Source: a virus. From it: 34,095 nucleotides of DNA. Location of the stretch: IMG/VR virus record IMGVR_UViG_3300047550_003244, positions 1 through 34,095 of that record, one strand, 5' to 3'. The translations under genes were made by a program, and so were the position numbers. Under the pieces are notes generated by a model. It ran no database searches. It was given only the letters and a program-made list of their open reading frames with translations, and was not told where the DNA came from. Shown here piece by piece: positions 1 through 17,200 of the stretch; the first letter of the stretch is position 1; each line of letters opens with the position of its first letter.

Positions 1-1318
1 AAACAGAAGTTTTAACACCCATCTGTACTTTTTTTACAGGTCCGAATCCTTCAGTAATAATTTGACCCTTTCTACCCATCATTGTAGTTTTAACTATATT
101 TTCATATTCCAAATCAGTATGTAAAATATTTGCCACTTCCATTCCTATACTATTCACCTCTATAAGAACATGTGCATTATTGTATTTTTTTGCTACGGTC
201 CTGAGAACCGAGGCAAAAAGCAAAGGAGACACGGTATTATTTTTATAAGTTGCAACAACCTTATAGGGAAATTCGGTAACATCTACAACTGCCATCGCTG
301 TATAATCTTTACCCTGTCCTTCTGCAACATCCGCAGTAATAAAATATAAATGATCTTGAGATTTTTCATTATCTATATTTTTTCTTACTGGTTCCTGATA
401 TATGTTCATTCCATCTTTTGTGCGAAGTAATGGTTTAACATACACTAGTGTATGTAATTTACTAGACGATATCAAAGTATTTGAACTTCCCAAAAAGTCA
501 CATTCAAACTCCTGTTCAAATTGCTTTTCGGAGGTTTTACTAATCATTTCTTGTTTCCATTTTTCATCACGAAGAGGTCCACCTGGATATTTTGGAACCT
601 GACTCCAGTGAACTTCAAATGGAACATAACCGTTTTGATTGTTTATGGCACCCTTCCAATAATAATAAAACATATTAAGACCATTGGGTGTTGAAATAAT
701 AAACATCTTAGTCGATTGACCAGATGTTATAGTTGGATATACAGATGTGAAAAACTCTTCAGCAATTTGTGTAGGAATGTGAGCAAACTCGTCTAAAAGA
801 ATACAATTGAATGAACCACCACGAATAGCAGAGGAAGAAGTTGCTGCTGCTAAAATTCTGGATCCATTTTCTAACACAATAGAACCTTTATTCCATTCTA
901 TGACACCCTGCTGCAACCATTTAGGTAAATATTCATATGCCATTTTAATTCTTCCAAGAATTTCAATCGCGGTTGATTGTTTGTTGGCAAGAATGGCAAC
1001 ATTCATATTTTGATTAAATAGTACATAATGTAAAAGATAAGCACCTACAGTAGTCGTTTTTCCCACCTGACGGGGAAGTTTTCCAATGACGAATCTATTA
1101 CTGTGAAGTTTTCCTATGAGTTCCTTTTGAAAGTCATACATCTCAAAAGGAACAAGACCCTTATCCACTGCTACAATTTTTACATATTTTTCTACAAAAT
1201 ATACAGGATCAGTAGCACATTTTATATATTCTTTAACTTGTTCTGGTGTAAATTGCTGTTGAACCCCTACTGGTTTAAGATTTGGGTTTCCTAGATATCC
1301 ATCTTTTTTAGTTGTCAT
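1..1318 (-). CDS. 17: Terminase large subunit gp17 (3' end cut by window edge)
   Basis: This is the ATPase and nuclease of the headful packaging motor, which docks on the portal and pumps DNA into the prohead. My translation gives 439 residues from the ATG at 1318 with no stop before the edge; T4 gp17 has 610. The ATPase half shows a Walker A (PRQVGKTT, about residues 82-89), a Walker B (ILLDEF, about 173-178) and a coupling motif (ISTPNG, about 208-213). The nuclease half begins with the acidic motif TADVAEGQGKDYTA around D330 and the second acidic motif IEVNS around E387; the third acidic residue would lie beyond the edge. The gene overlaps the end of gp16 by 11 bases, as expected for coupled terminase subunits. 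A GGAAG sits about a dozen bases before the start. The reading frame is open to base 1, so only the C-terminal nuclease part is missing. Confidence 0.96.
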   Translation of the reverse strand, partial: MTTKKDGYLGNPNLKPVGVQQQFTPEQVKEYIKCATDPVYFVEKYVKIVAVDKGLVPFEMYDFQKELIGKLHSNRFVIGKLPRQVGKTTTVGAYLLHYVLFNQNMNVAILANKQSTAIEILGRIKMAYEYLPKWLQQGVIEWNKGSIVLENGSRILAAATSSSAIRGGSFNCILLDEFAHIPTQIAEEFFTSVYPTITSGQSTKMFIISTPNGLNMFYYYWKGAINNQNGYVPFEVHWSQVPKYPGGPLRDEKWKQEMISKTSEKQFEQEFECDFLGSSNTLISSSKLHTLVYVKPLLRTKDGMNIYQEPVRKNIDNEKSQDHLYFITADVAEGQGKDYTAMAVVDVTEFPYKVVATYKNNTVSPLLFASVLRTVAKKYNNAHVLIEVNSIGMEVANILHTDLEYENIVKTTMMGRKGQIITEGFGPVKKVQMGVKTSV

Positions 1319-1778
1319 TTTCCACTTCTTCCGTTGGTATCGCTTTCAATTGACTACGCGACTGGTTAATAAGGTTTTGAAGATCGCGAGTTGAACCAAC
1401 AAAGATTGAATTGTTTGTAGTATTTTTAACAACTTTATTTGTGCCTAGAGCATCCGCAGTGGTTTTATGTATTCCCATAAGATCAGTATTTATTTCGCTG
1501 ACTGTTTTCATTAAAATAGAAGCAACTTCATACGCTCTCGGGGAGTCGCCTGCTTCTGCAACTCTCATTATTCCGTCAAGTGCATCAAACCCACGACTTA
1601 TGAGTTCTTTCATATTTTTTCTGGCAGAATCATAATCTTGTTTTATTTGATCTTTTCTTTTAATTTTTACTTCTTTTATAAAAGATTCTGTTTTTATAAT
1701 AGGTTGATCTGATTTAATCACTTCTATGTCAAGAGCATTTGCAATTTTATCATCTGCTGTAATTCGTTCATCATTCAT
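1308..1778 (-). CDS. 16: Terminase small subunit gp16
   Basis: The small terminase regulates gp17 and helps recognise DNA at the start of packaging. The protein has 156 residues from the ATG at 1778 (T4 gp16 has 164). It has the family layout: a variable acidic N-terminus, a helical core (DYDSARKNMKELISRG, then AEAGDSPRAYEVASILMKT) that forms the ring in homologues, and a C-terminal tail containing IFVGSTRDLQNLI, which parallels the T4 segment with VFMGSPTELMDEI. A TTG six bases upstream would add two residues. The ATG is preferred because it forms a classic ATGA overlap with the gp15 stop and has GGAG about ten bases upstream. Its 3' end overlaps the gp17 start, so gp15, gp16 and gp17 look translationally coupled. 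Confidence 0.92.
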   Translation of the reverse strand: MNDERITADDKIANALDIEVIKSDQPIIKTESFIKEVKIKRKDQIKQDYDSARKNMKELISRGFDALDGIMRVAEAGDSPRAYEVASILMKTVSEINTDLMGIHKTTADALGTNKVVKNTTNNSIFVGSTRDLQNLINQSRSQLKAIPTEEVENDN

Positions 1779-2527
1779 GGCCAATCTCCAGTCACTATTG
1801 TTGTAGAACCACTTATATAATCTCCAGTATATCCAATATCAGCAACATATTCACTTCCACCAACTGTTTCCTCGCCATCATATATGTTAACATCAGATCG
1901 TTCAATTATTCCTCCAGTAGAACCACATATATTTGGATAAATGTAAGTTTTTGATGAAAAATCAAAACTTGTAATCAATATTCTTCGATCATCAAAAGTT
2001 CCTTCATATTTTTCGTCAATATTTACATTATTTAATACGAATGGTATATCAACATTTGGATACAACTCATTCATTTTTACTGTCACTGTATAATCTGGAG
2101 CAAAATATGGAACAATTTGTTCTACGATTTGTAGCATATCATCCATATTTCTTGTAAAAGCATACAAAGAAAATCCTATGATATATGGTACTTCGGCATA
2201 TGCTTTATAAAATACATCGTTTACCACATCACTTCTTTGTAGAGTTCTATTTAATTTTCTACTTGGATCATAAATCATTGTTGTGATCTCGAATCCAAGT
2301 TTAGGTAAAACAATTTGAACTCTGGAGTTTTTAGATAAACTGCTTTCTTGTGAAATTCTCCAAATAAATTTTTCTTTGCTTCCATAACTTAAAGCAACAC
2401 GAATTTTTTCTTTCACTGATCCATCTGTGTTTTTTCTAATAACATAAACTGATTCAAACAATGAACCAAATGCAAGAACAAGTTTGCGAATAGATTCGTT
2501 ATAGTACGCTTGAGTTACAGAAAACAT
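1775..2527 (-). CDS. 15: Tail sheath terminator gp15 (proximal tail completion protein)
   Basis: In T4, gp15 forms a hexamer capping the finished tail tube and sheath and connects it to the neck proteins gp13 and gp14. The protein here has 250 residues (T4 272). The N-terminus (YYNESIRKLVLAFGSLFESV) parallels the T4 start with YNSSFRRYATLMGDLFSNI. The central block shows IRVALSYGSKEKF and then SLYAFTRNMDDMLQIVEQIVPYFAPDYTV, matching the T4 pattern of FTRYEDDMFQIVEQILPYFQP. The C-terminus after about residue 200 is Gly/Ser-rich and looks flexible. Its ATG shares a base with the gp14 stop (TAATG), and its stop overlaps the gp16 start. Position and sequence agree, so the call is firm. Confidence 0.93.
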   Translation of the reverse strand: MFSVTQAYYNESIRKLVLAFGSLFESVYVIRKNTDGSVKEKIRVALSYGSKEKFIWRISQESSLSKNSRVQIVLPKLGFEITTMIYDPSRKLNRTLQRSDVVNDVFYKAYAEVPYIIGFSLYAFTRNMDDMLQIVEQIVPYFAPDYTVTVKMNELYPNVDIPFVLNNVNIDEKYEGTFDDRRILITSFDFSSKTYIYPNICGSTGGIIERSDVNIYDGEETVGGSEYVADIGYTGDYISGSTTIVTGDWP

Positions 2528-3450
2528 TAATTACATTCCTCCGAGAATGGATTATCTCTGCTAAATTTTAACTCATTATCTGCTGCTTCAGCATATATGT
2601 CATTTTCTATTTCACTAACTCCTGATATTGGGTCAACAGATAGGTTTACATTTGTTACATTATAATTCAGTAGGTAATGTTCTCTTCCAGTAACTTTACT
2701 CTTTACTGTTTGTGTTCCTGATGGTCCTGTTACAAATGTTCCACTTACACCTTTAACATATGTAAATGCTCCTGTAATTTCAACAACGGTTGCCTCTGCA
2801 GTTCTTGCTGTGTATATTGAATTTGGTCCTGTTATTCCATCAACTTGATAAATTAAATCTCCACGCTTAAATGCAGTTGCTCCACAGAATCCTGCACCCG
2901 ATATTTCAAAATAATACATGTTGTATTTTCTTTTATCTTCTACTTCATCTATAGAATCAATTCCAGTATCAATTGTTTCAAACGAATATGTAAAGAGTTC
3001 ACATGTAAGTGTGTATGTTGTTAAAATTCCAAATTGAAAAAATGGCATCTTATCTTCAACATAATTTATTTCAAATAAACTTTTATTGAATGGAAAGTAA
3101 ATTAAATCGCCTTCTCGTGGAACTTTCACAATATCATTTTTATTTGCCACTTCTTCATCAAATCTTCTTTTTGCTACTTGTAAAGTTACTTTATCTGTAA
3201 TGTTAATACCAAATTTATTAATTATATTCATTTGACCAGCAAATGCAGTTACATTTTGAATATACATTTCTATAGTGTATACATCTTTAAACTGAGATAT
3301 TGGATCTTCTCCGAATACCAAATCTCTATTTAAATATTCTCTAGGAATATAAATCATATCTCTACCCATAGTTCTGATTGTTTCTACAGTCAAATCTGTG
3401 AGTAGATCTTGTTCTCCAACATATTCCCTGAAGTATGGATTTGTTGCCAT
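2527..3450 (-). CDS. 14: Neck protein gp14
   Basis: gp14 completes the head by forming, with gp13, the ring between the portal and the tail. The protein has 307 residues, longer than T4 gp14 (256). The N-terminal signature is YFREYVGEQDLLTDL, followed by ETIRTMGRDMIYIPRE, the typical opening of gp14 proteins, and a central block with DIVKVPREGDLIYFP. The extra length probably comes from a region at about residues 175-260 that includes Gly/Thr-rich loops (GITGPNS, SGTFVTGPSGTQT). The start lies three bases after the gp13 stop, with GGAT as a weak ribosome site overlapping the end of gp13. The stop is fused to the gp15 start in a TAATG. Confidence 0.92.
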   Translation of the reverse strand: MATNPYFREYVGEQDLLTDLTVETIRTMGRDMIYIPREYLNRDLVFGEDPISQFKDVYTIEMYIQNVTAFAGQMNIINKFGINITDKVTLQVAKRRFDEEVANKNDIVKVPREGDLIYFPFNKSLFEINYVEDKMPFFQFGILTTYTLTCELFTYSFETIDTGIDSIDEVEDKRKYNMYYFEISGAGFCGATAFKRGDLIYQVDGITGPNSIYTARTAEATVVEITGAFTYVKGVSGTFVTGPSGTQTVKSKVTGREHYLLNYNVTNVNLSVDPISGVSEIENDIYAEAADNELKFSRDNPFSEECN

Positions 3451-3453
3451 TTG

Positions 3454-4263
3454 TTATCCGATCATGAAATCTACTGGCAATTCATATGATCTTTCAAATT
3501 CTTGTTCAATTGCTATAATTTCTTGAACTGCTGAATCATATATCTGTTGTCCTTTAAATTGAATTCCACCTGGAAGCTGGACACCATCATACTTTAACAT
3601 ATTGGCACCCCATTGTCTTTTTACCAAGGCAGTCATATATTTTTTCAAAAGACGATCATTGTAGATTTTTGTATGAATTTCTGGATCTAACGCAGCATAT
3701 GCTTCAATTACCAAATAATGTCCAGAAGGAATATCTTGTGAAAATGCATCAACATAAATTTTATCCGTAACTTTGCTAAATCTTATACCTTTTTCTGGAC
3801 TAAAAAACTGCTCAATTAAACTTATATACTGCATGGTTGTTTGATATCCAGCAACGGGTGTTGATTGACTTCCATTTAATCCACGATTTATTCCAAAATA
3901 ATCTGTAAGTGCTAACTGATATCTAACATCAAACATGTTTACACCAGATAAAGTTCCAAATCGAAACACTTTAACAACAGATACTATGTCTTCACCTTTT
4001 GGTCCAGTTGGATCATCTGCGGGATTGTCTATATCAGTGACATTTATATAACCTCTGTCTAAATCAGTTTGTGTTACTTGATACTTAAAATAAATTTTTT
4101 GAACACCATCATAATGGCGAGTTGTGAAATATTGCAATGCTTCATCAAGACGGTCTTCGCACTGCTGTTGATCGACATTTACCTGTATTACTGGATGCCC
4201 GAGAGTGCGAAGAGCGTATTCTATTAATGTTTGTCTTGAGTCTGGTGCAGTAGGTGATGCCAT
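3454..4263 (-). CDS. 13: Neck protein gp13
   Basis: gp13 is the head-completion protein that binds below the portal and prevents DNA leakage before the tail attaches. It has 269 residues (T4 309). Its N-terminus (LIEYALRTLGHPVIQVNVD followed by EDRLDEALQYFTTRHYDG) is the hallmark of the gp13 family in T4-like phages. The C-terminal half contains KKYMTALVKRQWGANMLKYDGVQLPGG, also typical. The gene is the first of the neck/terminase group and has its own apparent late promoter and a strong Shine-Dalgarno (AAGGAG, nine bases before ATG), both embedded in a hairpin at 4266-4302. Read-through transcripts from the upstream adhesion module would therefore be expected to translate it poorly. Confidence 0.94.
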   Translation of the reverse strand: MASPTAPDSRQTLIEYALRTLGHPVIQVNVDQQQCEDRLDEALQYFTTRHYDGVQKIYFKYQVTQTDLDRGYINVTDIDNPADDPTGPKGEDIVSVVKVFRFGTLSGVNMFDVRYQLALTDYFGINRGLNGSQSTPVAGYQTTMQYISLIEQFFSPEKGIRFSKVTDKIYVDAFSQDIPSGHYLVIEAYAALDPEIHTKIYNDRLLKKYMTALVKRQWGANMLKYDGVQLPGGIQFKGQQIYDSAVQEIIAIEQEFERSYELPVDFMIG

Positions 4264-4272
4264 AGAAAAACT

Positions 4273-4278
4273 CTCCTT
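4273..4278 (-). promoter_or_regulatory. gp13 ribosome binding site sequestered in a hairpin arm
   Basis: AAGGAG sits nine bases before the gp13 ATG and is the strongest Shine-Dalgarno noticed in the window. All six bases are in the 3' arm of the terminator stem, so a transcript reading through from upstream would pair them, while a transcript starting at the late promoter in the loop would leave them free. Confidence 0.75.
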
Positions 4279-4282
4279 ACTT

Positions 4283-4290
4283 TATTTATA
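4283..4290 (-). promoter_or_regulatory. T4-type late promoter octamer upstream of gp13
   Basis: The minus strand reads TATAAATA, an exact match to the T4 late promoter -10 octamer recognised by the gp55 sigma factor. It lies in the loop of the hairpin and overlaps its 3' arm complement by two bases. With usual T4 spacing, transcription would begin at about 4277, so the RNA would contain the gp13 Shine-Dalgarno but lack the pairing arm. Chance octamers are expected in DNA this AT-rich, but this one lies in the largest intergenic gap directly before a gene. Confidence 0.7.
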
Positions 4291-4304
4291 AGGAGAGTTT
4301 TTTA

Positions 4305-4910
4305 CTATTTTTGTGTTTCATTTTCTGGATTTGGTTGATTAGGTGCCAAATCGTGCGTTGTTACAGATATTTTTTCAATTTCACTGTAAGGTAATTGATC
4401 AATATAGTACCTTCTAGTAATTGGCATAGTTGCTTCTTCTGGTTTTGATTTTTCGTAGTTTGTAAATCCAGGCATAGCAAGAGGGCAATTTAACTTTGGA
4501 TAATCAAGTTTACTATATTCTTCTCCCTCTGCCACTAACCAAGTACCTTTTCTGTCCCCGCAACCACAACCGCCACAAAAATGTTTTCCTGGAGTTGATG
4601 AATTTTTTAAATGTTCGCAGGGGGGAAGAACTCCACCTTGATTTTTATTACCAAAACAAGAAAGAACTCGTAATTGTTTTATTGGTTTTGTTACTTTTTG
4701 ATTATTAATTCCCCGCGATGCAATTGCCATAGCAAAACTTTGCATCATGGTTAATTTTTGTTTTAATGCAGACTCTGGAGTTGCTATTTCTCCTGGTCTA
4801 AAATTTACCGACTGTTCTGTTGTTTTTGGTGCTAAAATTGGAGGTAGTGTGGTATTTTGATTGTTTTCGTTATTTGGTTCATTGTTTTTATTTCTGCAAT
4901 TGCAACCCAT
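4305..4910 (-). CDS. Conserved-looking Cys-rich protein, possible metal binder (function unknown)
   Basis: This 201-residue protein opens with MGCNCRNK, followed by an Asn-rich, low-complexity stretch to about residue 25. The centre holds a Cys cluster: CFGNK, then PPCEHL, then CGGCGCGDRKGTW at about residues 112-124, and NCPLAMPGF at about 142-150. The spacing of six to eight cysteines suggests a zinc or iron-sulfur site or a disulfide-rich fold; no named domain can be assigned. The segment EYSKLDYPKLNCPLAMPGFTNY looks too regular to be random, and I believe similar hypothetical proteins occur in other large phages, but this is memory rather than a search. The gene is the last before the terminator and follows the 536-residue gene by ten bases with AAGGAT as its ribosome site. 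A role with the Cys-rich adhesins (structural or as an assembly helper) is only inferred from its position. Confidence 0.6.
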   Translation of the reverse strand: MGCNCRNKNNEPNNENNQNTTLPPILAPKTTEQSVNFRPGEIATPESALKQKLTMMQSFAMAIASRGINNQKVTKPIKQLRVLSCFGNKNQGGVLPPCEHLKNSSTPGKHFCGGCGCGDRKGTWLVAEGEEYSKLDYPKLNCPLAMPGFTNYEKSKPEEATMPITRRYYIDQLPYSEIEKISVTTHDLAPNQPNPENETQK

Positions 4911-4920
4911 AATATAATCC

Positions 4921-6531
4921 TTATGTTAAAAGTATTCTTCTAAAAAACATCATTGTTGCTGGTGTTTTCTTGTCAATCAATACAGTTTTATAGTTTATAG
5001 AATAAGAAGAATCTACTGCCACTCCATAAACAAAACTTTTTCCTAATGATTTATTCTTTTTTGTTTTACTGTTTAAGTATTTAGTGTCAAATAAAGAAGA
5101 AGATGTGAGAGTTCCAAGATTTTCTATATTTTTTGATTTTAAATATGCAGAATAAAAGTATAATTCATATATTGATGGAATGTAAAAATCTATAAATCCT
5201 TTTCTATCTGCGTACCGAATAGTATTTGTTACAGCAGTGTTTATTCCTGAAAAACTATTACTGCCGTATGTATTATAATATCCATCCCATAGAGAAGTTT
5301 GATAACTTAAATCCTGTTCACCTTTAAATAAAAATGGAGCACTGTATCTATTTGGATCTACTATTATTGCCCATTTTGCACCAGTTCCACCAATCGAATC
5401 TGCATTTACTGTATTTAAGGTTGGAGATCCAAAACTTAAATTTCCATAAACCAAACTGCTTTTTCCATTTAAATATGGAGGTTCAAATATTCCAATATAG
5501 ATTCCACCTTGAAAACTATCTCCCGATGTAAGACCTAATGCATTAAATGCACTTAATCCCATTTCTTGGACCACATATTTTCCAAAAGTATTTTTTACAG
5601 GATCTGATGGTCTATATGTTTCTCCAGATATTCCACAATATGGATTATCTGAATCTTCCACTTCTACCCAATATCCAGTGCACAATGATTTTGGAGTTAT
5701 TGTGCATTCATATTCTAATGTAATTCCATTTTCTACTAATGAGTAACAAGAACCCAAATCAAATTCATCATATACTGAAGGAATGTTAACCATTCTTCTT
5801 AAATTTGAATTTGTACTACAATTTGCAACAGGTGTTCCTTCAATCAAAGGAACATTGCATCGTGTAGATGAATTGTAAATGGAAACATATGCAGATTGAG
5901 ATAGTGCACCACAATCTGAAGGATTGCAGACATCTGTGCAAACTACAGAAGAAGGTTCTCCATATTCATTATAACTTAAATGACAACATGCTCTTGCAGC
6001 ACGCGCGTCTAAAGTAGCACCAATCATGCAATAATTTTTCCAGTAATAAGGAGAAGTTGTATCTTCACTTAAAGTATTTGGACAATTACCTGGAGTCCAC
6101 TTTCCTCCTATACTTTCACAGTAGCATTTACTAGTAAATGATCTAAGACCAGGACCATCGCCAGAAATTGCATTTGGATCTGTTTGTGGATCGGAGGATG
6201 GTGATAAATACGGAGAACTTCCTGCAACTGGATCACCATTTGGAGATGTTAATGTAGGCATCTGCTGTTGAGCAGCAGATGTCATAAACTTGCAAGCACA
6301 GCAACATCCTTCATCATTATTTATTTGTGGACATGATACATTTTCATAATTTCCATCTGGCACTGGTATATAAATTCCACCATAAACCCAGCATTCATAA
6401 AATGAAGTTATTAATGGTTCAGAAAGATTTCCACCAGATCCACCTATATTGCAACAAACTCCATATCCGTTTAAAGCGTCAGAATAATCAAATGCTGGTT
6501 TAATTCTAGAACGAAAATGGACGCTTGACAT
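4921..6531 (-). CDS. Cys-rich virion protein with a C-terminal DUF1566/Lcl_C-like domain
   Basis: This 536-residue protein has no collagen stalk. Residues 1-230 are Cys-rich (GVCCNIGG near 23, GCCCACKF, KCYCESIGGKWTPGNCP, ACCHL) and match the second half of the repeats seen in the three giant proteins. From about residue 345 it resembles the C-terminal halves of the 1260- and 1267-residue proteins: GGIYIGIFEPP, then KWAIIVDP, then FIDFYIPSIYELYF at about 445-458, ending with a basic FFRRI. This order of motifs resembles the DUF1566/Lcl_C family, probable C-type-lectin-like ligand binders. The WSST motif present in the two relatives is not recognisable here. The start codon overlaps the stop of the 1291-residue gene (TAATG), suggesting that both products are made together. 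It is probably a distal adhesin or accessory virion protein; the domain call is by eye. Confidence 0.6.
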   Translation of the reverse strand: MSSVHFRSRIKPAFDYSDALNGYGVCCNIGGSGGNLSEPLITSFYECWVYGGIYIPVPDGNYENVSCPQINNDEGCCCACKFMTSAAQQQMPTLTSPNGDPVAGSSPYLSPSSDPQTDPNAISGDGPGLRSFTSKCYCESIGGKWTPGNCPNTLSEDTTSPYYWKNYCMIGATLDARAARACCHLSYNEYGEPSSVVCTDVCNPSDCGALSQSAYVSIYNSSTRCNVPLIEGTPVANCSTNSNLRRMVNIPSVYDEFDLGSCYSLVENGITLEYECTITPKSLCTGYWVEVEDSDNPYCGISGETYRPSDPVKNTFGKYVVQEMGLSAFNALGLTSGDSFQGGIYIGIFEPPYLNGKSSLVYGNLSFGSPTLNTVNADSIGGTGAKWAIIVDPNRYSAPFLFKGEQDLSYQTSLWDGYYNTYGSNSFSGINTAVTNTIRYADRKGFIDFYIPSIYELYFYSAYLKSKNIENLGTLTSSSLFDTKYLNSKTKKNKSLGKSFVYGVAVDSSYSINYKTVLIDKKTPATMMFFRRILLT

Positions 6532-9500
6532 TAGGTTTCCTCACAAAGTTCGTAATCAACACAGTCTCCACATGAAGTCCTTACACAAATATAATCAGTA
6601 TTATTTAGATAAACTTTTACATTTTTAAGAGAAGAGAACCCAGAAAATGAACTACACTGATTAGTATATGATGAAAATGTTGGATCATATCTTTGTGATG
6701 ATCCATTACTGTACCATTGCTGCTCTGTTGCATTAGATGCCCCCAAAAAACAAGAATCAGAAGGTATAGGACACCAATATTGATAAATATTATCTTCTTC
6801 TGCCCACTGAGTACACTGTTCAGTTGTATTATTACAAAAATCTTCTCCAGTTACTTCACCATTGCCGCTAGAGTTACCTTCTCCTAAAACTGGACCACCA
6901 TCATCAACACAACTACATGGAGATGTGCAATCATAGTAATCGCAAATCCATCCTCCTCGCCTTTTTAGCAATATTTGTCCTCCTCCTGGTCCCTCCTCAC
7001 CACCACAATATCTCTCCCAAGTAAAAGGAATATCTGTTCCAAATTTTAGTGGATTCACCCAAAAAGGTGCAGCAGTAGAGCAAGGAGTATTTGGGGATGG
7101 GCATCTTCTACATTTACATGCATTATTTGGATTAGAAAATGACACATTGCTATCTGGGTAAAGTGCAACTCCCGCATTTCCCCAAAAGTCTAAAACTTTA
7201 TTTGCAATTAGTTGAACTGCAAGGGTGGCATTGGACATCTCATTTACCTCCCCCGTTGTGCCAAAAATATTAAACAATATATTTTGTGCATTGCAATAAT
7301 TGTTATTAAATGGAGATAATGATGGTGTTAAAGATGTTTCCCATGGAATGTTTATTCCTAATGTATTAAACATTAAATCACAGCAACCATTAAATCCAGG
7401 AGATTCAGGATTATCAATACATTCAACATTTTTGTTAAATGGAACTCTCTCTATGTGTATAACAAGTGGGCATGGTGCTATTCCCAATCTTGGATCATTG
7501 GATCCATGTATAACTCTTTGTGCCTGATTGTCTGGTATATAACCCTCAGTTGTCAGATTTGCTCCTGCTGTATATCCCATTATTCTTAAAACAGGTTTTG
7601 TCTTGATTGTGCTATTGCATAATAAACAATCACTAGTAAATTCGCCAGTATTGCATGGAATTCCTTTTGGTCTATTACATGGTCTAAAGAAATATGGAAC
7701 CTCTTGACATGAATTGCCAGTACATCCAAACAATGCATTTGGTTTATTATACCACACACCACCACCAGCACAACATTCTGTTTTTGTTGTTACATTTGGC
7801 AAGCAATTATTATTTTTACAACAAATTCCTTCTGCGCCATTAAAACAATTTCCACCGCCACCTCCACCAAACCCTGTTCCAAACCCTGTTCCTCCTGAAC
7901 CACCAGATCCACCAATGCAAGGATTAGATGCGCAAGAAACATATGGAACAAACTGTCCAGTGCACTGTCCGCGAGTAACATTATCTACACAACCACCACT
8001 TTGTCCTCCTGGTGGAGTTGTTCCTTGACAATTATTATCTTCACATGCATTTGGATTTGTTCCCAACCAAGTTCCATGCCCTAAGGGAAAATTGACACAT
8101 TCATATTCAGTTAAGTTGTTAGTACAATTGCCTGGAGAATTTGGAGGTGCAAGATCTCCGCGTATACAACAATAACCAGTTGGTCCACTTAATCCACCGC
8201 CTCCACCTGGTGGTAAAAGTCCTAGTCCACCCCCACCACCAGATATTGGACCACCACCGCAATTATCAGTAGCTTGTGGACAATTATCACCCTCATATGT
8301 TCCACAAATATAGAGATTAGGAGGAACAACCGAGCATGGTGCATCGTCTGGAACAAAATCGCGATTACAAGCTATTCCTGATGGTGTGCAATACGAATAA
8401 CACGGAGTAATTTCTTCACATTCTTCTCCGTTATCGTCAACTATGCGTCGAACATAACTACAACAACAACGATTTCCAGCTGGAATAGTACCATCTGAAT
8501 TTAAATTGCAAGTACACCCTGCTAAACATAAGTCTCTTGTTGAACTCCATTTTTTATATGGTCCAGAGCATTGAGACTGTGTTGATGGAACACAAGCAAA
8601 TTCGGGATCTTCTGTTGCAACATCATTTATATTTTGACAACAGAATCCATCTTCATCTGTGCCTCCACCTCCACCTCCACCGCCACAACAAGATCCAGTT
8701 GGTCCACCACCACCACTTCCACCAGATACACCAATTGAACAAACACATGCACAGGATACATCTGTACATCTTAAATTTGGACCCATAAATGAACCATTGA
8801 GTGCTCTGCATTCAGAAACACTAACATCATCTCTGCATTCATATCCACCGAATTCATCACAAATACAACATGGACCAGAATTAACAGTAAGATCACAGCA
8901 ATTAACTAAATCACATGAATCTCTGTTTGGTGGATGACCAATATCATTTTCATCTGGAATTGCAGTCATTGCTTTTCCACCAAGAACAATTTCACACTGT
9001 GCTCTAGTATAATTTCCTAAACATTTTCCACCTTTGCAACAAACAGTTGGTGTATCACAAGGATCATAACAAAATCTTCCTTGTAATCTAAGTTGATCCT
9101 CTGTTAAATCGCCACTTGGATAATTAAGACCATCTGGATTAAATGAACCACAAGAAATTCCTTTCCAAAATATTCCTCCAAAACTTTCACAAAGTCTTGG
9201 AGATATACTTTCAACACATGAACCATTTACACAACAAACTCCATTTTCAGCACAATTTTCCGAACAAGAACTCATTGGATTAAATGTGCCATATAAAAAG
9301 TCACATTGTCTTTTTGTTACATATTCTTGACAACCAAGGGTTCCTCCAGGAGTTTCATAACAACAAGACCCAAACAAATATCCTGGAATACATTGTTCTG
9401 CATCTTGAATTCCATGACCACGATGCGCTACTGTTGCATACCAAGAATACCCACGATTAAAACTAGTAAGTCCAATTATGTTTTTTCCACAACTTAAATA

Positions 9501-10406
9501 ATTTTCACCCTGTTCAAAATAAATATTAATTGGAAAAACCCAAACATCATCACCATTTATAACTAAAGTTGCCGAAAGTATTTGGTTATCGCCAAAGTTA
9601 TCATATCCAGTAAATCCACGAATTCCTATTGGAGTATTAAGCACAAATGTTCCAGCTGCATTTAGATCTAAATATACTCCTAAAGTTGCTGGTGGAGAAA
9701 TTGTATAAGGAAGGCCAGTTATTCCATGAATTGATCCTGGAGGTATTGGATTAAGAGTTAATATTTTTGATCCAGAATTTAAATGATAACTGGTATCATC
9801 TTTTCCTGCTCCATCATATACAGTGTTTGTAAAATTAAAAGCTCCAGAATGTCCTTTACTTATGTTTTCAGATGTTAATGGACTATAAGTTAATCCACCT
9901 CCAAATACTGTATATGGGTTTCCTAAATACAGTATTTTTCCAACACCCATTGTGGTTGCATCATAATTTCCAATTATATTTGTGCCAAAATAAATTGAAT
10001 CTATAGAAATATATTCATTATTTGGTCCAGTTAATGATGCATACAAAGAACCAGTTGCTGTAAGTCCTTTTATTATAAAAGTTCCACCAATAACTTGATG
10101 AAATATTCCATATCTTTGTGTGTCTTCGGAAGAACCTGTATTAGATCCCTTTACTAATCCAAATGTTTTATCTGCAGTTGTGCTTCCTCTAAAATTTCCA
10201 GAAACCGAAAATGTAGTTCCATCAGAAAGTGTTAGTTGTATTACACCTCCTGCAGCAGTTGCAGAAACAAAATATACAGCAATATTTCCAGTAAACCCAG
10301 TTGTTCCAGGAATACCAGTCGGACCTATAGAACCAGTTAAACCAGTTGGACCTCTATTTCCAGTTATACCGTAAGTTAAAATGTCAATTATTGGACTATT
10401 ACTCAT
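6531..10406 (-). CDS. Giant collagen-like, Cys-repeat virion protein (putative adhesin 3)
   Basis: This protein has 1291 residues. Residues 13-40 form a short collagen-like Gly-X-Thr stalk. Residues 41-345 are Gly/Ser/Thr-rich and beta-like. Residues 345-930 hold the longest Cys-rich array in the window, about eight imperfect units built on G-x-CC, a short loop, C-x5-7-C, an aromatic GG-F/W stretch and C-x2-6-C (examples: GVCCVNGSC, VCCKGGKCLG, ICCKNNNCL). Units are separated by poly-Gly linkers near 570-585, 715-740 and 850-870. The C-terminal 360 residues are unlike the two sister proteins: the DUF1566-like motifs are absent, and an unrecognised region (LAVQLIANKVLDFWGNAGVAL) precedes more Cys pairs (CKCRRC, CGDCVDYELC). 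The stop overlaps the start of the 536-residue gene. The ATG at 10406 has only a weak AAAAGAA site. Cysteines this dense suggest disulfide bonding after release. Its role as a fibre or surface adhesin is inferred. Confidence 0.65.
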   Translation of the reverse strand: MSNSPIIDILTYGITGNRGPTGLTGSIGPTGIPGTTGFTGNIAVYFVSATAAGGVIQLTLSDGTTFSVSGNFRGSTTADKTFGLVKGSNTGSSEDTQRYGIFHQVIGGTFIIKGLTATGSLYASLTGPNNEYISIDSIYFGTNIIGNYDATTMGVGKILYLGNPYTVFGGGLTYSPLTSENISKGHSGAFNFTNTVYDGAGKDDTSYHLNSGSKILTLNPIPPGSIHGITGLPYTISPPATLGVYLDLNAAGTFVLNTPIGIRGFTGYDNFGDNQILSATLVINGDDVWVFPINIYFEQGENYLSCGKNIIGLTSFNRGYSWYATVAHRGHGIQDAEQCIPGYLFGSCCYETPGGTLGCQEYVTKRQCDFLYGTFNPMSSCSENCAENGVCCVNGSCVESISPRLCESFGGIFWKGISCGSFNPDGLNYPSGDLTEDQLRLQGRFCYDPCDTPTVCCKGGKCLGNYTRAQCEIVLGGKAMTAIPDENDIGHPPNRDSCDLVNCCDLTVNSGPCCICDEFGGYECRDDVSVSECRALNGSFMGPNLRCTDVSCACVCSIGVSGGSGGGGPTGSCCGGGGGGGGTDEDGFCCQNINDVATEDPEFACVPSTQSQCSGPYKKWSSTRDLCLAGCTCNLNSDGTIPAGNRCCCSYVRRIVDDNGEECEEITPCYSYCTPSGIACNRDFVPDDAPCSVVPPNLYICGTYEGDNCPQATDNCGGGPISGGGGGLGLLPPGGGGGLSGPTGYCCIRGDLAPPNSPGNCTNNLTEYECVNFPLGHGTWLGTNPNACEDNNCQGTTPPGGQSGGCVDNVTRGQCTGQFVPYVSCASNPCIGGSGGSGGTGFGTGFGGGGGGNCFNGAEGICCKNNNCLPNVTTKTECCAGGGVWYNKPNALFGCTGNSCQEVPYFFRPCNRPKGIPCNTGEFTSDCLLCNSTIKTKPVLRIMGYTAGANLTTEGYIPDNQAQRVIHGSNDPRLGIAPCPLVIHIERVPFNKNVECIDNPESPGFNGCCDLMFNTLGINIPWETSLTPSLSPFNNNYCNAQNILFNIFGTTGEVNEMSNATLAVQLIANKVLDFWGNAGVALYPDSNVSFSNPNNACKCRRCPSPNTPCSTAAPFWVNPLKFGTDIPFTWERYCGGEEGPGGGQILLKRRGGWICDYYDCTSPCSCVDDGGPVLGEGNSSGNGEVTGEDFCNNTTEQCTQWAEEDNIYQYWCPIPSDSCFLGASNATEQQWYSNGSSQRYDPTFSSYTNQCSSFSGFSSLKNVKVYLNNTDYICVRTSCGDCVDYELCEET
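7615..9370 (-). repeat. Cys-rich repeat array encoded in the 1291-residue protein
   Basis: About eight degenerate units of 40-70 residues share a CC pair, a C-x5-7-C spacing, and a Gly/aromatic stretch before the last Cys pair. They are separated by Gly-rich linkers whose DNA is simple (CCACCT-like on the plus strand). The repeats are similar in protein sequence, not near-identical in DNA, so they are old duplications. Boundaries are approximate. Confidence 0.7.
10287..10371 (-). repeat. Collagen-like Gly-X-Y segment of the 1291-residue protein
   Basis: Codons for Gly recur every third position (GPTGLTG, GPTGIPGTTGFTG), with Thr favoured in the Y position. Collagen-like triplets in phage fibres are known to form trimeric rods, so a trimeric assembly is inferred. 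Confidence 0.85.
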
Positions 10407-10428
10407 AATTTATTCTTTTAAGTATATA

Positions 10429-13400
10429 TCAAGCATTAAATGGAATTACTGTTGTTTCTCCTGGTATATTACCAACAGCATAAAAATTTGCATTTCTTGG
10501 TTGTGTACAAATTCTTTCAACTCTATCTAAACATGAAGCACATCCAAAATTATCTCCAGAGGAACCAGCTCTATAATAATTTTGTAAAATATTTGTACTA
10601 TAGTAAAAATTCTTACAAGTTACAATAAGTGGTATTCTTCTTACTGGTCTTAAGTGTGCAATTCTGGCATTTCTATTTTGAGATCGCATTGCTCCAACTT
10701 CATTAGCAGGTCCATTAAATACTTGAGTTAACATTTTTTGACCATTAGAAACTGCCATGGTAAATTTGTATGCTTGATCTTCTGTTAATGAATTTTCATC
10801 ATTTGTTAAAACTGTTCCATTGAAATTAGTAGAAGTCAATCTTGTTGATGATAAGTATGGTTCAAGTTGAGGATCAATTGGTTCTAAAATATAATAATCT
10901 TTATTTAATGGATCATCATTGCTCCAGTTACGAAGACGAGAAACGCTTGTAGAGCTCCAATATTCATTTCCTGCTAAAATTTGATCTCCCTCTACTGCAA
11001 GAGAAGCATTTAAATCATTTAAATTCGAATACATATAATTCAATTCAGTTATACTCGGTATATACCAATCATTATAACCATACAGAAAACTGTTATTCCA
11101 ATTTGAAATTTGTCTAATTGCAGATGTTAATGGATTTTTTGAATCCCACATTCTAGCATATGCTTGTTTAAAATAATTAATATCGTTTTGCATCAATTCT
11201 GGATTAATATCGGAAGGCCATGCTGAACCATTTCCGAAACTAAATCTGCAATAAGCAGATGGATCACTTGTTGTTGTTAATCCTTCTCCTGATCTAAACC
11301 ACAAATATGGATTTCCTTTTGAGGTGGCATCATGAATTCTTGTAGACAATAAACCATCAACAGGATATGTTGGAGTTTCTTCTAATACTATTGCAGAGGG
11401 TGCACCACTTTCAGATGCAATATTAGATCCTTGCATCATTCCCCAACTTAGTTTTCTAGAACCCCCCGTTATTCCATCTTGAGTCAAGACTTCAACATCT
11501 TCGGGTGCAACAATCAATGCCCAGAGAACATGAATATCGTTATTTCCGTAAACATTTGCTGCTAAATGTTCGTATAGATTTGACTGATTAACCCCATCAA
11601 GTAATCCGTTAAAATATTCAACAGCAAGTCCAGAACCAACTAATGTATAAGAGAAAGCACCCCTATTTGTACTATAGTTGTATCCGCCCTCAAACATCAT
11701 TTCCGCTGGCCAATTCACTCCATTTAAATTTACCGCTTGTTGAACAATTGGTGCTCCTGCTTTCAACATGCATCTGGAATCTAATGAATTTTTTGGAAGA
11801 ACTCTGGGGAAAGTTCTATTAAAATATTGAATTACTCCACTATTTGTTATTCCTGTAGATGGTTTACATGTTCGAAGATACCAGTATGGAACATTTTCTA
11901 GATTTCCTCGTGGATTGATCATACATTCTAATGGTTCACCTAAAGCAGTTGATGGTGAATTAAAATCATCACATGGATTTGGCATTCCTATAAATCCAAC
12001 AAAATATCCTCCACCAAGTTTAGTTCCAGGTTGCAAACACGAATATAATTGTCTAGCATGAAGTGCTTTACATTCTATATCTTTAATAACATTTTGATCA
12101 AGTGGATTTTGATATCCTGTAAAATAGGTATCATTACCACCAGTTACTCCACCACAACAATTGACTTCAGAACACTTTACTCCAGCACCTCTGAAAACAC
12201 CATTGATACTGTACATGCAATCTTGTGGTGAAACATCTTCACGACAATCTCCTGTTTCTGTACAACATGCACCTTTTAATAAATTGCTTCTTGCACAGCA
12301 TTCTGGATCACCTTCTAATGATGTACATGTTGCACCAGGAACAAATGTTGCTCCTTCTATTGCCATGCATTCATTTTCTTTTAAGTTATAACATCTTCCA
12401 AATATGCAACATCTTCCAGTAGTTGAAAAAGTACCACATAATATTTGTGAACATCTGTGTGAATTTCTTGCACGATCAGCAATTGCTAATTGTTGTGCAG
12501 TTGGTGGTGGATCAAGTCTTCCATAACTTCCGCTAGGAATTCCTGGTAATTGATTTCCAGAAGAATTTGGAGAACCCGTTTCATAATAATCTCTGCAAAT
12601 TTTTCCTGGGGCAAAAATTCCATTTAATTGTTGACATCTTGCCGCTGATGTGTTTCTACATTTATATGGATCTCCAGTATAATTATACCAATCTTGATCA
12701 TATGTGCAACATGCACCTTCTGCTAAACACTCTCCTGCTCTGTCAGCACAAGATCTTGTTGCCCACTGACCTCTATAAGTATAAATGCAAGCATGTTTAC
12801 TAATATAATCCTTACATTCATAAGTTGAACTTCCATCAGATGTACATATACAGCAAGAACCTATGAATCCAGCATTGCTAAAATTTCCAGGAAGTGCTGC
12901 ACTTAATGGAGTATATGAATTTCTATTTTCATATCTTGGAAGATACATTGGAACATATCGATAACTGTATGGATTTGCAAATGATTTATACCAATTTGCA
13001 TTAAACTCATTAAGCGATTCTGGATTAGTATCATATCCAAATATAGATCGAATTATAAATCCAATTTCTGGAAAGGATAATGATCCATAAGATGAGTAAT
13101 ACGGTTCTCCAGGAGTTACAGGAAATTCAAGTGTATTAATTTGTGTTGAAAAAAATTGTGGACCATATTGCACTGTATCTGCATCATAAAATGTACTTGA
13201 TTTATACCAAAATGGATGAATAAATTTTTGCGATAAGTATGTTATTGTGTCAAAAGATAAACCACTTGTTACACCAATATACATTATTGGTGTATATGTA
13301 AAATATTCATCTCGTATATCGTTATTTGGTAAAAATGATGTTTCAATATTAAATAATTGAGTATAATATGGTAATGTTCTTGTAATGATATCTTGTGGTG

Positions 13401-14232
13401 GAGCAAAAGGAGAAGATGGATTATTTAAAAATAAAGGAACAACTGAATTATAAACAAGAGAGGTTCCATATTTTTCAGAAGTAAATCCAGCATTATATGT
13501 AAAGGTTGATCCAACTGTGCCAAATTGGAATCCAGACAGCGTATTTATAGTTCTCCAATTTTTATTATTATAGAATGCTTCTCTTGATACTTTTTGATCT
13601 ATAGTCAATTGTCTAGAACTTTGATCAAATTTTGTATTTGGTGCTGCAGAAGATTTAAATCCAGTATAATTGAAACCAGCATTTGGATTTACATATAACA
13701 ATTCACCAGTGTTTCCAATTGCAATTTCTTCATCTGCCAGTGTTGCTCCGTACAGATAGACTACGCTACTATCTGAAGTTATTCCTACAAATGTGGCACC
13801 AATTTCAAGACCTGGAGCACTTCCTTTTAATTCTATTCCTTTAAAAAATACAGTATTAGCTGCTTCATTATTTGAAAATGGAAAATATTCAAATATATTA
13901 TTATGAATAAAATTTGTAGATAAATTTTCAGTTGGTTCAGCATTTAATTCTCTAACACCAAATTTTGGAAGAATTGAAGCAGAATTTCCTGGATTTCCCT
14001 GCACATTTGCAAAAGTAAATGCATAATTATTTGCATAGAATATAATAGTGGTGCCATATCCAGTTATTCCAGTAACTCCTGCACCAGTCGGACCAGTAGG
14101 ACCACTAGTTCCACTCGGTCCAGTTGCACCAGTAGTTCCAGTTGCACCAGTTGCACCCGTTCTTCCTTGAGTTGCCCCAGAAATATTTGATGGTCTTATT
14201 ATTTGTACTACTCTTGATGAACCGTAAATCAT
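10429..14232 (-). CDS. Giant collagen-like, Cys-repeat, DUF1566/Lcl_C-like virion protein (putative adhesin 2)
   Basis: This protein has 1267 residues. It starts MIYGSSR, close to MLYGSSP of the next gene upstream, followed by a collagen-like stretch at about 19-60 (GRTGATGATGTTGATG). Residues 60-455 are Tyr/Ser/Asn-rich without a recognised domain. Residues 455-695 hold four Cys units (GSCCIC, GACCTYDQ, GRCCIFGRC, GACCTETGDC). Residues 730-1200 resemble DUF1566/Lcl_C: GGGYFVGF, WALIVAP, NDWYIPSITELNYMY near 1050, YWSSTS near 1092 and LRPVRRI near 1197. A short Tyr/Asn-rich and Cys-containing tail follows. The Legionella adhesin Lcl combines the same two elements, a collagen-like stalk and a C-terminal Lcl_C domain, which supports a trimeric adhesin role. 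It sits between two similar giants and probably arose by duplication. The domain identity is by motif only. Confidence 0.7.
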   Translation of the reverse strand: MIYGSSRVVQIIRPSNISGATQGRTGATGATGTTGATGPSGTSGPTGPTGAGVTGITGYGTTIIFYANNYAFTFANVQGNPGNSASILPKFGVRELNAEPTENLSTNFIHNNIFEYFPFSNNEAANTVFFKGIELKGSAPGLEIGATFVGITSDSSVVYLYGATLADEEIAIGNTGELLYVNPNAGFNYTGFKSSAAPNTKFDQSSRQLTIDQKVSREAFYNNKNWRTINTLSGFQFGTVGSTFTYNAGFTSEKYGTSLVYNSVVPLFLNNPSSPFAPPQDIITRTLPYYTQLFNIETSFLPNNDIRDEYFTYTPIMYIGVTSGLSFDTITYLSQKFIHPFWYKSSTFYDADTVQYGPQFFSTQINTLEFPVTPGEPYYSSYGSLSFPEIGFIIRSIFGYDTNPESLNEFNANWYKSFANPYSYRYVPMYLPRYENRNSYTPLSAALPGNFSNAGFIGSCCICTSDGSSTYECKDYISKHACIYTYRGQWATRSCADRAGECLAEGACCTYDQDWYNYTGDPYKCRNTSAARCQQLNGIFAPGKICRDYYETGSPNSSGNQLPGIPSGSYGRLDPPPTAQQLAIADRARNSHRCSQILCGTFSTTGRCCIFGRCYNLKENECMAIEGATFVPGATCTSLEGDPECCARSNLLKGACCTETGDCREDVSPQDCMYSINGVFRGAGVKCSEVNCCGGVTGGNDTYFTGYQNPLDQNVIKDIECKALHARQLYSCLQPGTKLGGGYFVGFIGMPNPCDDFNSPSTALGEPLECMINPRGNLENVPYWYLRTCKPSTGITNSGVIQYFNRTFPRVLPKNSLDSRCMLKAGAPIVQQAVNLNGVNWPAEMMFEGGYNYSTNRGAFSYTLVGSGLAVEYFNGLLDGVNQSNLYEHLAANVYGNNDIHVLWALIVAPEDVEVLTQDGITGGSRKLSWGMMQGSNIASESGAPSAIVLEETPTYPVDGLLSTRIHDATSKGNPYLWFRSGEGLTTTSDPSAYCRFSFGNGSAWPSDINPELMQNDINYFKQAYARMWDSKNPLTSAIRQISNWNNSFLYGYNDWYIPSITELNYMYSNLNDLNASLAVEGDQILAGNEYWSSTSVSRLRNWSNDDPLNKDYYILEPIDPQLEPYLSSTRLTSTNFNGTVLTNDENSLTEDQAYKFTMAVSNGQKMLTQVFNGPANEVGAMRSQNRNARIAHLRPVRRIPLIVTCKNFYYSTNILQNYYRAGSSGDNFGCASCLDRVERICTQPRNANFYAVGNIPGETTVIPFNA
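12150..12870 (-). repeat. Cys-rich repeat array encoded in the 1267-residue protein
   Basis: Four units of about 40-90 residues follow the pattern G-x-CC, C-x6-8-C, Gly-aromatic and C-x2-9-C. The last unit (GACCTETGDC to EVNCC) is the most regular and could serve as a query. Boundaries are approximate. Confidence 0.7.
14055..14166 (-). repeat. Collagen-like Gly-X-Y segment of the 1267-residue protein
   Basis: More than ten Gly-X-Y triplets, mostly Gly-Ala-Thr and Gly-Pro-Thr, occur in one run with one interruption near GAGVTG. It is the longest collagen-like stalk in the window. Confidence 0.88.
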
Positions 14233-14247
14233 AGTTTTTTTACCATG

Positions 14248-17200
14248 CTATGTCTGAACAATATTTGCAATTATGGAACTCCACTGTGGATCTGATGTAA
14301 AATTAGATGCGTTGTATTGTTCATTATTTGCATTTGTACCATTGACAATAGCACCATCAGTTAATCTTGGAATATGCCACATTCTATTTGCACATATTTC
14401 ATAACCTGTATTATTATATTCATTTCCATAATATCTTTGATCACAACGAATCAAACGAACTAATCTCAATTCATATTTATCGTAAAAATCATCTCCCTTT
14501 TTAACTTTAAAATCCGTGGACACTGGAGCAGATTGTGTTTCTGTATCAAATGCTGGGAATTTTAATGCCCAAGCCTTTGTAAATTGGTGAGTGTTTACTT
14601 GATAAAAATGAGGTCCAGTTACTGAAACTGTTATTGGATTGTTTGTTTTAGGAACACCTCCTGTTGCTTGAATGTATTGTTTTGTGTTGCCTTCATCAAA
14701 ACATCCAGTAGAGGACCAAACCCATCCATTTGCACCAAGGGCAGCAGATCCTATAGGAATTCCTTGTCCTAAAGTTGGATTACCTCCACCACCCACACCT
14801 CCACCACCCACACCTCCACCACCCACACCTCCACCAGCACCACCCAACAATCTAAAAGTAATTTCTTTATTTGTTGAATTAGAAAAACTGTCTATATCAC
14901 CTAGAGTGGTACTTCTCAATCCAGAAGAATTAACTTGATAATTGTAAATTTTTTCTTGCAAATTATGTTTTACACATTGATTTGCAATAAAGGATAATTC
15001 ATCTATGCTTGGAACAAACCATCTAGAAACTTGTGGATATCCCGTTGCTCCCATTTCCTCAACTGTGTAATATTTTCTATTATAAACACTAGTTCCCTCT
15101 GCAATTGTTGTTTTTGCATGTTGACCGTTTGCTCTAAAGTTTGCAGTAAACCCAAAAGTAGGATGTTGTCCTGTTGCACCATATAATGAACGCAATTCGG
15201 TATACATTCCCGATCCTGCTCTTAAATAATATTCTGCAGCATCAGAACTAAATAATCTTGTACAATTGTACATTCCCCAATTTCTAGCCCAATAACCTGT
15301 ATTGGTTGTAAGAAGATTTGGTTTTCCTAAGCGTGTTCGTTTACATGGAGCTCTCCAACAATTTTGAAGACATGGGCCAAGAGATATTTGATTTCCCCAA
15401 CAAAAATCAAAAGATGTAGTATTACCCCAATATGTTGCTCCTGGTATTCCAAGATGCGATGTTGGCAATGTTCCATAAAACCCATCATTGCGTAAATTGA
15501 CACTTGTAGCTTCACAATTTAATGGTTCAATTAGGTCTGTGCCTTGAGTAACAATATGACCATCTTTTAAATTAGTTGCTAAAGTAAAACAATGTGATGT
15601 ACCACCATGACTCCAAGTAAATAAATTAATTTTTCTTTCATACATTTCAAATTGGTCTACTGTAGTTGGAGTTAGACTAGAAAACTCCACTGTGCTAGTA
15701 TCAGGTTCAATTGGTTCATTTGTATAAAAATCAGCATAATAATTTTCTGTTCCCAAAATACTGTTTTCATATAGTTGGGGTTTGATTCTCGCAGGGAATG
15801 GTAAAACTATTAATAACCAACTCTCACATCTCGAAGGAACTAGACCTGAAGGCAATTCATTATTTTTTGGAAGAGTAAATCCATATCCCCTGTCATCAAA
15901 AAAACTTCTATAATATTGTGCAGTTTTTTCATTTCCATTATTTAATTGATTAAACAATCCTCCAGCTAGACCCGATGGGTGTGAAGGGTTTGTTGCCTCA
16001 TTAAATTCTACATGCATAAGATCTAGACCGTTATAGGTTATTCCTGTAAATTCTCCACCAAAAGCATCAGCATTTCCTAAACATGTTGATCCCGAAGGTC
16101 TAAAAACTCCAGCAACAATTCCTCCAGCAAAAAAATCACCAATATTTAATTCAGTATACTGTCCAGTAAATATTCCAGTTACTGGATCATATTTTTTCAC
16201 TCTGAATGTATTTCCATCATAGCACTGTGGACAATTTGATTGAGTTGGAGGTGGTGGACCAGTTGGACCAGTCCCACCAGTGCCACCAGTTGGACCCGCT
16301 TCGCCCTCACATATAAATGAACCGCATGTAAATCCACATCCATAATAAACACCTGTACAACCAGTTATTGAAAAGTCGCCATATCGTTGTCTGTTTGTGC
16401 AATTGCCATTTACACAACAACCAGCAGTTGCTCCATTAAATCCTAAACATCTTTGATATAAAAAATTTCCAGAACCTGTATAACTGCAGACAGTTCCAAC
16501 TCCTTGCCAATATCCGTTTGCCGCTATACATTCATTTCTTGTTTTATTGTCTTGGCATCCACCAGAACCATTACAACAAGAACCTGTTTCGTTATATGCT
16601 GCAGCACAATCAACTGCTCCTGGAGCTCTATTACAATTATCAAACAATGTCCAATGTGACCAAGGAGTTTGATTTGAACTTCTAGAAATTCTTAAGCAGT
16701 CACATGATCTTACTGGAGAGGGATGTGTGACAATTTCATCATTTGAATTTTTATAACAACAATATCCAATTGGATCTCCATTTGCAGTACATCCAGGATA
16801 ATTAATGTTTTGGTGAGGAAAGAAATATGCATTTCCACTGCTAACTAAAGACTGACACCCCGATCTAACGGTAACAAATGATGTTCCTGCGCTGCACCCA
16901 ACACAGCACAAACCAACTGGATCATAAACTGGGTCATCAATTTCTATTGATCCAGCACAATTATTATATGTTTTATTCCAGGAAATTTGTTCATTTCCGC
17001 TATTATACATGCCATAATTTGCGTGCCATATTCCTTCAATATAAAATGCATTTATGACATCCAATCCTTCAGTAAAACATGGAGGATATGTTAATGGCCA
17101 TGAAATATTATTTTCGCCACCACCAAGAACATAACTATTTGAGTTTGTTGATATGTATTTTGTTGCAACTTTACCTGTTATTCCTGGTGGAACAACAATT

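Follow-up and report, generated by a model that had tools for sequence, protein, structure and literature searches.

A hairpin before gp13 of an uncultured T4-like phage as a probable one-way insulator of the neck-terminase operon

The stretch of DNA analysed here, called the window (34,095 nt; IMG/VR record IMGVR_UViG_3300047550_003244), is probably a fragment of a phage genome. Its minus-strand gap of 41 nt between a 201-aa gene (4305-4910) and gp13 (3454-4263) raises the question of how so short a sequence might govern the neck-terminase operon behind it (Table 1). The gap is probably a one-way insulator, a terminator and ribosome-site lock with a late promoter inside. Sequence, fold prediction, conservation, covariation, U-run enrichment and a difference in ribosome-site exposure support the insulator; from these we infer the late start, the read-through, the termination, the translational block and the timing of each.

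A long open frame after gp16 runs off the window and reads as the large terminase by sequence and gene order. The nearest named relative is Pelagibacter phage Mosig, whose gp13 is 43% identical and has no hairpin before it. Genes upstream of gp13 (baseplate, fibre, adhesin-like) are probably late themselves. Three of the encoded proteins (window 6531-18030; ~1260-1290 aa) carry collagen-like GPTG/GATG repeats near their N-termini, and by sequence are probably fibres or adhesins.

Table 1. Genes and sequence elements at the border between the Cys-rich gene and the neck-terminase operon
Feature	Coordinates	Strand	Basis
gp13 neck protein (head-tail adaptor Ad2), first gene of neck-terminase operon	3454..4263	-	PHROG phrog_211, 1.8e-35
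gp14 neck protein (head closure Hc2)	2527..3450	-	PHROG phrog_460, 2.3e-61
gp15 tail sheath stabilizer	1775..2527	-	PHROG phrog_227, 1.4e-64
gp16 small terminase; TTG start is the ORF finder's choice only	1308..1784	-	PHROG phrog_445, 3.6e-35
Upstream co-directional small Cys-rich protein MGCNCRNKN..., 201 aa	4305..4910	-	sequence
Hairpin 5' arm AAAAACTCTCCTTA, includes anti-SD CTCCTT	4289..4302	-	sequence, fold, covariation
Hairpin loop TAAATAAAG; 7 nt if U-G pair closes	4280..4288	-	sequence, fold
Hairpin 3' arm TAAGGAGAGTTTTT	4266..4279	-	sequence, fold, repeat search
T4-type late promoter octamer TATAAATA	4283..4290	-	kept in all 14 aligned window-clade sequences
Predicted late transcription start	4277	-	inferred from octamer position by T4 spacing
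gp13 Shine-Dalgarno (SD) AAGGAG, within 3' arm	4273..4278	-	sequence
U-tract TTTTTCT, candidate termination point right before ATG	4264..4270	-	sequence; T-run enrichment in relatives

On the minus strand the gap runs from the upstream stop codon TAG (4307-4305) through T (4304, directly after TAG), A, AAAAACTCTCCTTA, TAAATAAAG, TAAGGAGAGTTTTT and CT to the ATG at 4263. A sequence-only reading had proposed a perfect 14-bp inverted repeat forming a 37-base hairpin, with the gp13 AAGGAG in the 3' arm, and both are there: the arms (4302-4289 and 4279-4266) are complementary at 14/14 positions around a 9-nt loop, 37 nt in total (4302-4266), and AAGGAG lies at 4278-4273. The U5 that it placed after the repeat is present (4270-4266), but makes up the outermost third of the 3' arm, where it pairs with A5, and adds no tail. 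Similarly, the exact octamer that it placed in the loop is found at 4290-4283, but it begins in the 5' arm, whose final two bases it shares. In A/U-flanked terminators, a U-run lying within the 3' arm and paired to an A-run is normal.

No other inverted repeat in the window is perfect over 14 or more positions with its arms no more than 60 nt apart. The folding-energy check called for by the same reading gave -20.1 kcal/mol for RNA of 4310-4250, against -6.4 +/- 2.1 for shuffles (z = -6.4; 0/200 shuffles as good); the hairpin by itself comes to -17.8 kcal/mol, or -12.5 without its A5/U5 part. A chance inverted repeat is ruled out by the z-score, the shuffles and the covariation described below. 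A terminator scan of the window that allowed loops of up to 8 missed the hairpin because its 9-nt loop exceeds that maximum. Rfam gave no match anywhere in the window. A second inverted repeat (4147-4163 / 4204-4220; 17 nt, 88% complementary) lies in the first 120 bases of the gp13 coding sequence.

In T4 late promoters, +1 falls six bases after the octamer. By this spacing the predicted start, 4277, falls inside AAGGAG and gives a 14-nt leader, AGGAGAGUUUUUCU; since the 5' arm ends at 4289, RNA from 4277 would lack it. Before gp13, TATAAATA stands at the distance from a late gene expected of a T4-type late promoter. The octamer occurs four times on the minus strand of the window and never on the plus strand, and of the intergenic copies only that before gp13 has an SD and a start codon after it. 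Copies at 13549 and 24195 were considered as promoters of like kind and rejected, as they lie inside genes. The 22335-24104 gene has another copy right at its end (22359-22352, minus strand), placed 23 nt ahead of the ATG of the gene 21561-22328, for which it is a candidate late promoter, but without a hairpin. A sigma-70 promoter scan of the window was uninformative (46 found vs 46.3 in shuffles). Mosig encodes a gp55-type late sigma. In octamer class and in its place upstream of structural genes, the gp13 promoter resembles the late promoters NATAAATA of cyanophages and pelagiphages, as given in the available excerpts (PMC2984593); the excerpts of the literature on those promoters hold no description of them as hairpin-embedded. 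For pelagimyophages, late-promoter prediction is reported as failed in the available part of PMC7029224.

The two RNAs that would result differ sharply in predicted exposure of the ribosome site. In the window, the predicted probability that the SD is unpaired is 0.001 on read-through RNA vs 0.83 on RNA from 4277; across 34 clusters of related gp13 leaders the medians are 0.0006 and 0.58, with late starts placed by T4 spacing. The predicted late leader is 14 nt in the window and 9-29 nt across clusters. On upstream-initiated RNA, the SD is thus predicted to be paired in a stable hairpin (-17.8 kcal/mol, with covariation), and the promoter is so placed that late RNA is predicted to lack the 5' arm.

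The proposed mechanism follows this layout. Polymerase from the adhesin-side operon would transcribe the entire hairpin, which together with the U-tract would act as an intrinsic terminator, ending the RNA at ~4266-4264, just before the AUG. RNA that escaped would have its gp13 SD locked in the 3' arm and would be translated poorly. Late in infection, polymerase with a gp55-type late sigma would start at TATAAATA in the loop, near 4277. Lacking the 5' arm, this late RNA would escape termination at the hairpin and could not form the lock; AGGAG in its 14-nt leader would be open to ribosomes. The neck-terminase operon would then answer to its own late promoter alone.

Conservation was assessed on relatives fetched from IMG/VR with the window gp13, to which more distant gp13 proteins were added; 232 gp13 loci with a readable leader fell into 83 clusters at 90% protein identity. 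Loss of hairpin or octamer in close relatives, named beforehand as the outcome that would tell against the sequence-only reading, was looked for, and all of the window gp13 clade (12/12 clusters) keeps the hairpin, the octamer in its loop and the SD in its 3' arm. The branch enclosing this clade has 98% support. Aligning the gap in related phages, also proposed beforehand, revealed compensatory change: among 14 distinct window-clade leaders, 98% of pair cells are paired, 8/14 pairs have changed on both sides and the octamer is kept in 14/14 sequences. Sliding the partner by 1-3 columns lowers pairing to 49-64%, and no shuffle is as high as the true alignment. In one relative (L021, gp13 70% identical), the helix is kept via compensatory changes at seven pairs, ATCTCCATCTT...AAGATGGAGAT.

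In other gp13 clades the arms are unalignable outside a CTCC/GGAG core, with the same layout and, in several, TATACATA in the loop. Examples of such arms before gp13 are CTCCTGATGC...GCATCAGGAG, CTCCTATGTTC...GAACATAGGAG, CTCCCCTGTG...TACAGGGGAG and TTCTCCTTACCTG...GTAGGTAAGGAGAA. Across 15 leaders of distant clades, 10/13 pairs have changed on both sides. The hairpin is present in 36-37/83 gp13 clusters, a count from which one classifier match was dropped (L147, SD exposed in the ensemble, 0.98) and L022, L069 and like matches with dG above -8 were left out, while L226, L230 and L219 were added by eye. About half of the gp13 clusters have no hairpin at the same place. Five named phages (Mosig, HTVC008M, DSL-LC02, Melnitz and P-TIM40) have none there. 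On the gp13 tree (84 rows), the hairpin state requires at least 6 changes, gains or losses alike, and 0/500 shuffles are as low.

The terminator half is visible as a stable core stem (-12.5 kcal/mol) followed by UUUUUCU. Its strength is uncertain because only 4/9 core stem pairs are G-C. A T-run of at least 4 between SD and ATG is found in 24/36 hairpin clusters vs 1/25 gp13 leaders without a hairpin and 17/318 SD-bearing genes of related contigs; for the last comparison Fisher p is ~1e-17, a value that overstates independence, the clusters being related. T-runs after the SD occur in several separate clades, and from their enrichment termination looks to be under selection. Without a U-run, 12 hairpin clusters resemble T4 gene e.

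This enrichment also fits a less likely alternative, in which the hairpin is terminator and promoter only and the SD pairing is a by-product of packing into ~40 nt, with no regulatory role. A leader of 9-14 nt forces the 3' arm over the SD. Moreover, four loci (L323 at ~9905, L320 at ~4221, L394, L399) carry TATAAATA in the loop of a terminator-like hairpin and, directly after it, a second TATAAATA and a start codon; by sequence they hold two candidate late promoters, one in the hairpin and one after it, and so use the hairpin without locking the start. The gene downstream of the double octamer in L323 reads as gp13. In L067 and L078 the terminator is separate: a terminator-like hairpin of the ordinary kind precedes a promoter that lies free of it. 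The L042/L219/L220/L226/L230 clade and the L045/L053 clade argue the other way, as they keep the SD-pairing hairpin with no U-run, making termination unlikely there. The terminator and the SD lock are each kept alone somewhere and are therefore separable; this speaks for a role of both at the sites of overlap.

The gene upstream of the hairpin suggests a further possibility, a rather improbable one: that ribosomes ending the Cys-rich gene open the hairpin and pass to gp13, whose output would be tied to upstream translation. In the window just 2 nt separate the Cys-rich stop codon from the 5' arm, close enough that a ribosome terminating there could open the hairpin; across the window clade this spacing is 1-5 nt, and the anti-SD follows the stop at 9-15 nt. 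Wherever a hairpin cluster has sufficient DNA before the hairpin, the upstream gene runs in the same direction as gp13. The Cys-rich protein (4305-4910) has no match in Pfam or PHROG; similar-looking Cys-rich proteins, their likeness judged by eye from start sequence, size and place rather than by alignment, directly precede gp13 in most relatives, with or without a hairpin. Against coupling, the distance is not constant, being 11-46 nt in other hairpin clusters, except L045, L053, L063, L074 and L108, and the late promoter kept in the loop everywhere would be superfluous.

More doubtful still is protection or processing of the mRNA end, with the hairpin mainly stabilising the upstream mRNA at its 3' end or serving as an RNase III-type cleavage site. 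A stable hairpin right after a stop codon suits such a role, which is also compatible with termination, but the conserved loop octamer and the constant 3'-arm SD across unalignable arms would be left unexplained. A palindrome acting as DNA, bound by a protein or used for recombination where the variable adhesin region ends, is hardly credible: the hairpin does lie close to the boundary of the variable region for host recognition that the accessible part of PMC7029224 outlines in pelagimyophages, but the arms differ in length and sequence from clade to clade, a promoter and an SD are embedded in every case, and coding-strand mismatches in both alignments favour G-U over A-C (24 vs 8; two-sided p = 0.007), which argues that coding-strand RNA folds.

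The sequence-only reading had the hairpin separating neck/terminase expression from the adhesin operon, and the layout and logic of that separation, conserved and covarying, hold. An early/late split as in T4 e is on less sure ground, since the upstream genes are themselves probably late, and for the same reason the translational lock is less obviously needed than in T4 e. The safer reading is insulation from a neighbouring operon that is variable. According to the accessible text of PMC7029224, the neck genes of pelagimyophages have a hypervariable cluster for host recognition immediately upstream, which would make insulation from exchangeable neighbours a reasonable purpose.

Tentatively, the hairpin of terminator, late promoter and lock might be a general insulation device, built repeatedly by T4-like phages with unrelated arms at the border between host recognition region and neck-terminase genes, so that the upstream module could be swapped with the expression of the packaging genes left intact. 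If the insulator reading is true, the T4 trick of a ribosome site hidden in long transcripts and freed by a start inside the hairpin would extend from accessory genes to a core structural operon of uncultured T4-like phages. The hairpin would be a minimal insulator of ~40 bp whose promoter and terminator share bases. It would also offer a concrete way to locate the borders of late operons in phages where, according to the available part of PMC7029224, late-promoter prediction failed.

The lock half is the known mechanism of T4 e, soc, 49 and I-TevI, whereas the overlapping terminator and the neck-terminase placement appear to be new. The excerpts of PMC3014915 describe SD-sequestering hairpins in these four genes that are opened by late initiation, with 100-fold repression of gene e on long early transcripts, and those of PMC2988022 name segB, I-TevII/III and Aeh1 mobE as similar arrangements. 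As in soc, 49, I-TevI, segB and mobE, described in these excerpts, read-through RNA before gp13 would hide the ribosome site and RNA from the adjacent late promoter would not (PMC3014915, PMC2988022). The parallel with e and soc drawn in the sequence-only reading agrees with the available text of PMC3014915, and folding reproduces it for e; the soc leader folded into weak structure only. The T4 e leader, AATACCTTCTATAAATACTTAGGAGGTATT-ATG, served as positive control for fold and layout and folds like the gp13 hairpin, with TATAAATA between the arms, the SD in the 3' arm beside the ATG and a very short late leader. Unlike the gp13 hairpin, it has no U-run and hence no terminator part.

The genes guarded also differ. 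The e hairpin guards a lysis gene in early transcripts, whereas the gp13 hairpin would guard the neck-terminase operon behind probably late genes; the known T4 and Aeh1 targets, as far as the excerpts cover them, are accessory, lysis or endonuclease genes, whereas gp13 heads a core structural operon. Neither gp13 nor the terminator overlap was found in the excerpts of open-access literature on SD-sequestering hairpins, an earlier report being possible, and excerpts of the literature on promoters inside terminator hairpins in phages held nothing relevant. With the intrinsic terminators of T4-like phages the hairpin shares a stem and then a U-rich tract at an operon border. In T4 itself (L480, T4 93300-94900), a GGGGCCGCAAGGCCCC hairpin lies between wac and 13, shortly before the SD; unlike that of the window, it holds no promoter and excludes the SD.

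A scan of 644 kb (related contigs and the window) for hairpins of dG -12 or lower with a late promoter in the loop and an SD in an arm returned 8 matches, overlapping motif matches counted apart, vs 0.4 per Markov-shuffled replicate, and the distinct sites listed at this threshold were all at gp13. Markov shuffles served as the control because a reversed-motif control was uninformative, ATAAATAN overlapping TATAAATA itself. In 7 long relative contigs, a Mosig stretch, two T4 stretches and the window, the strongest elements (dG -12 or lower) were at gp13 and T4 e.

A wider scan of viral contigs for CTCCTTATAAATA-N(0-10)-AAGGAG found at least 119 stretches; among the matches listed, 72 of the 113 examined in newly fetched loci precede a gp13 relative. 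Also among the matches listed, L296, L376, L336 and L358 have a hairpin with TATAAATA in the loop before the baseplate hub gene gp5 (Gp5_OB). This gp5 element occurs in many contigs, mostly without a U-run, although L376 has U8; excerpts of the T4 review literature make no mention of such a use at gp5. Three others among the matches listed (L300, L330, L312) have the element before a GH19 endolysin, a SegE-like GIY-YIG endonuclease and a RuvC-like protein. The endolysin and endonuclease sites match known T4 uses, since T4 has the arrangement at e and at I-TevI and segB.
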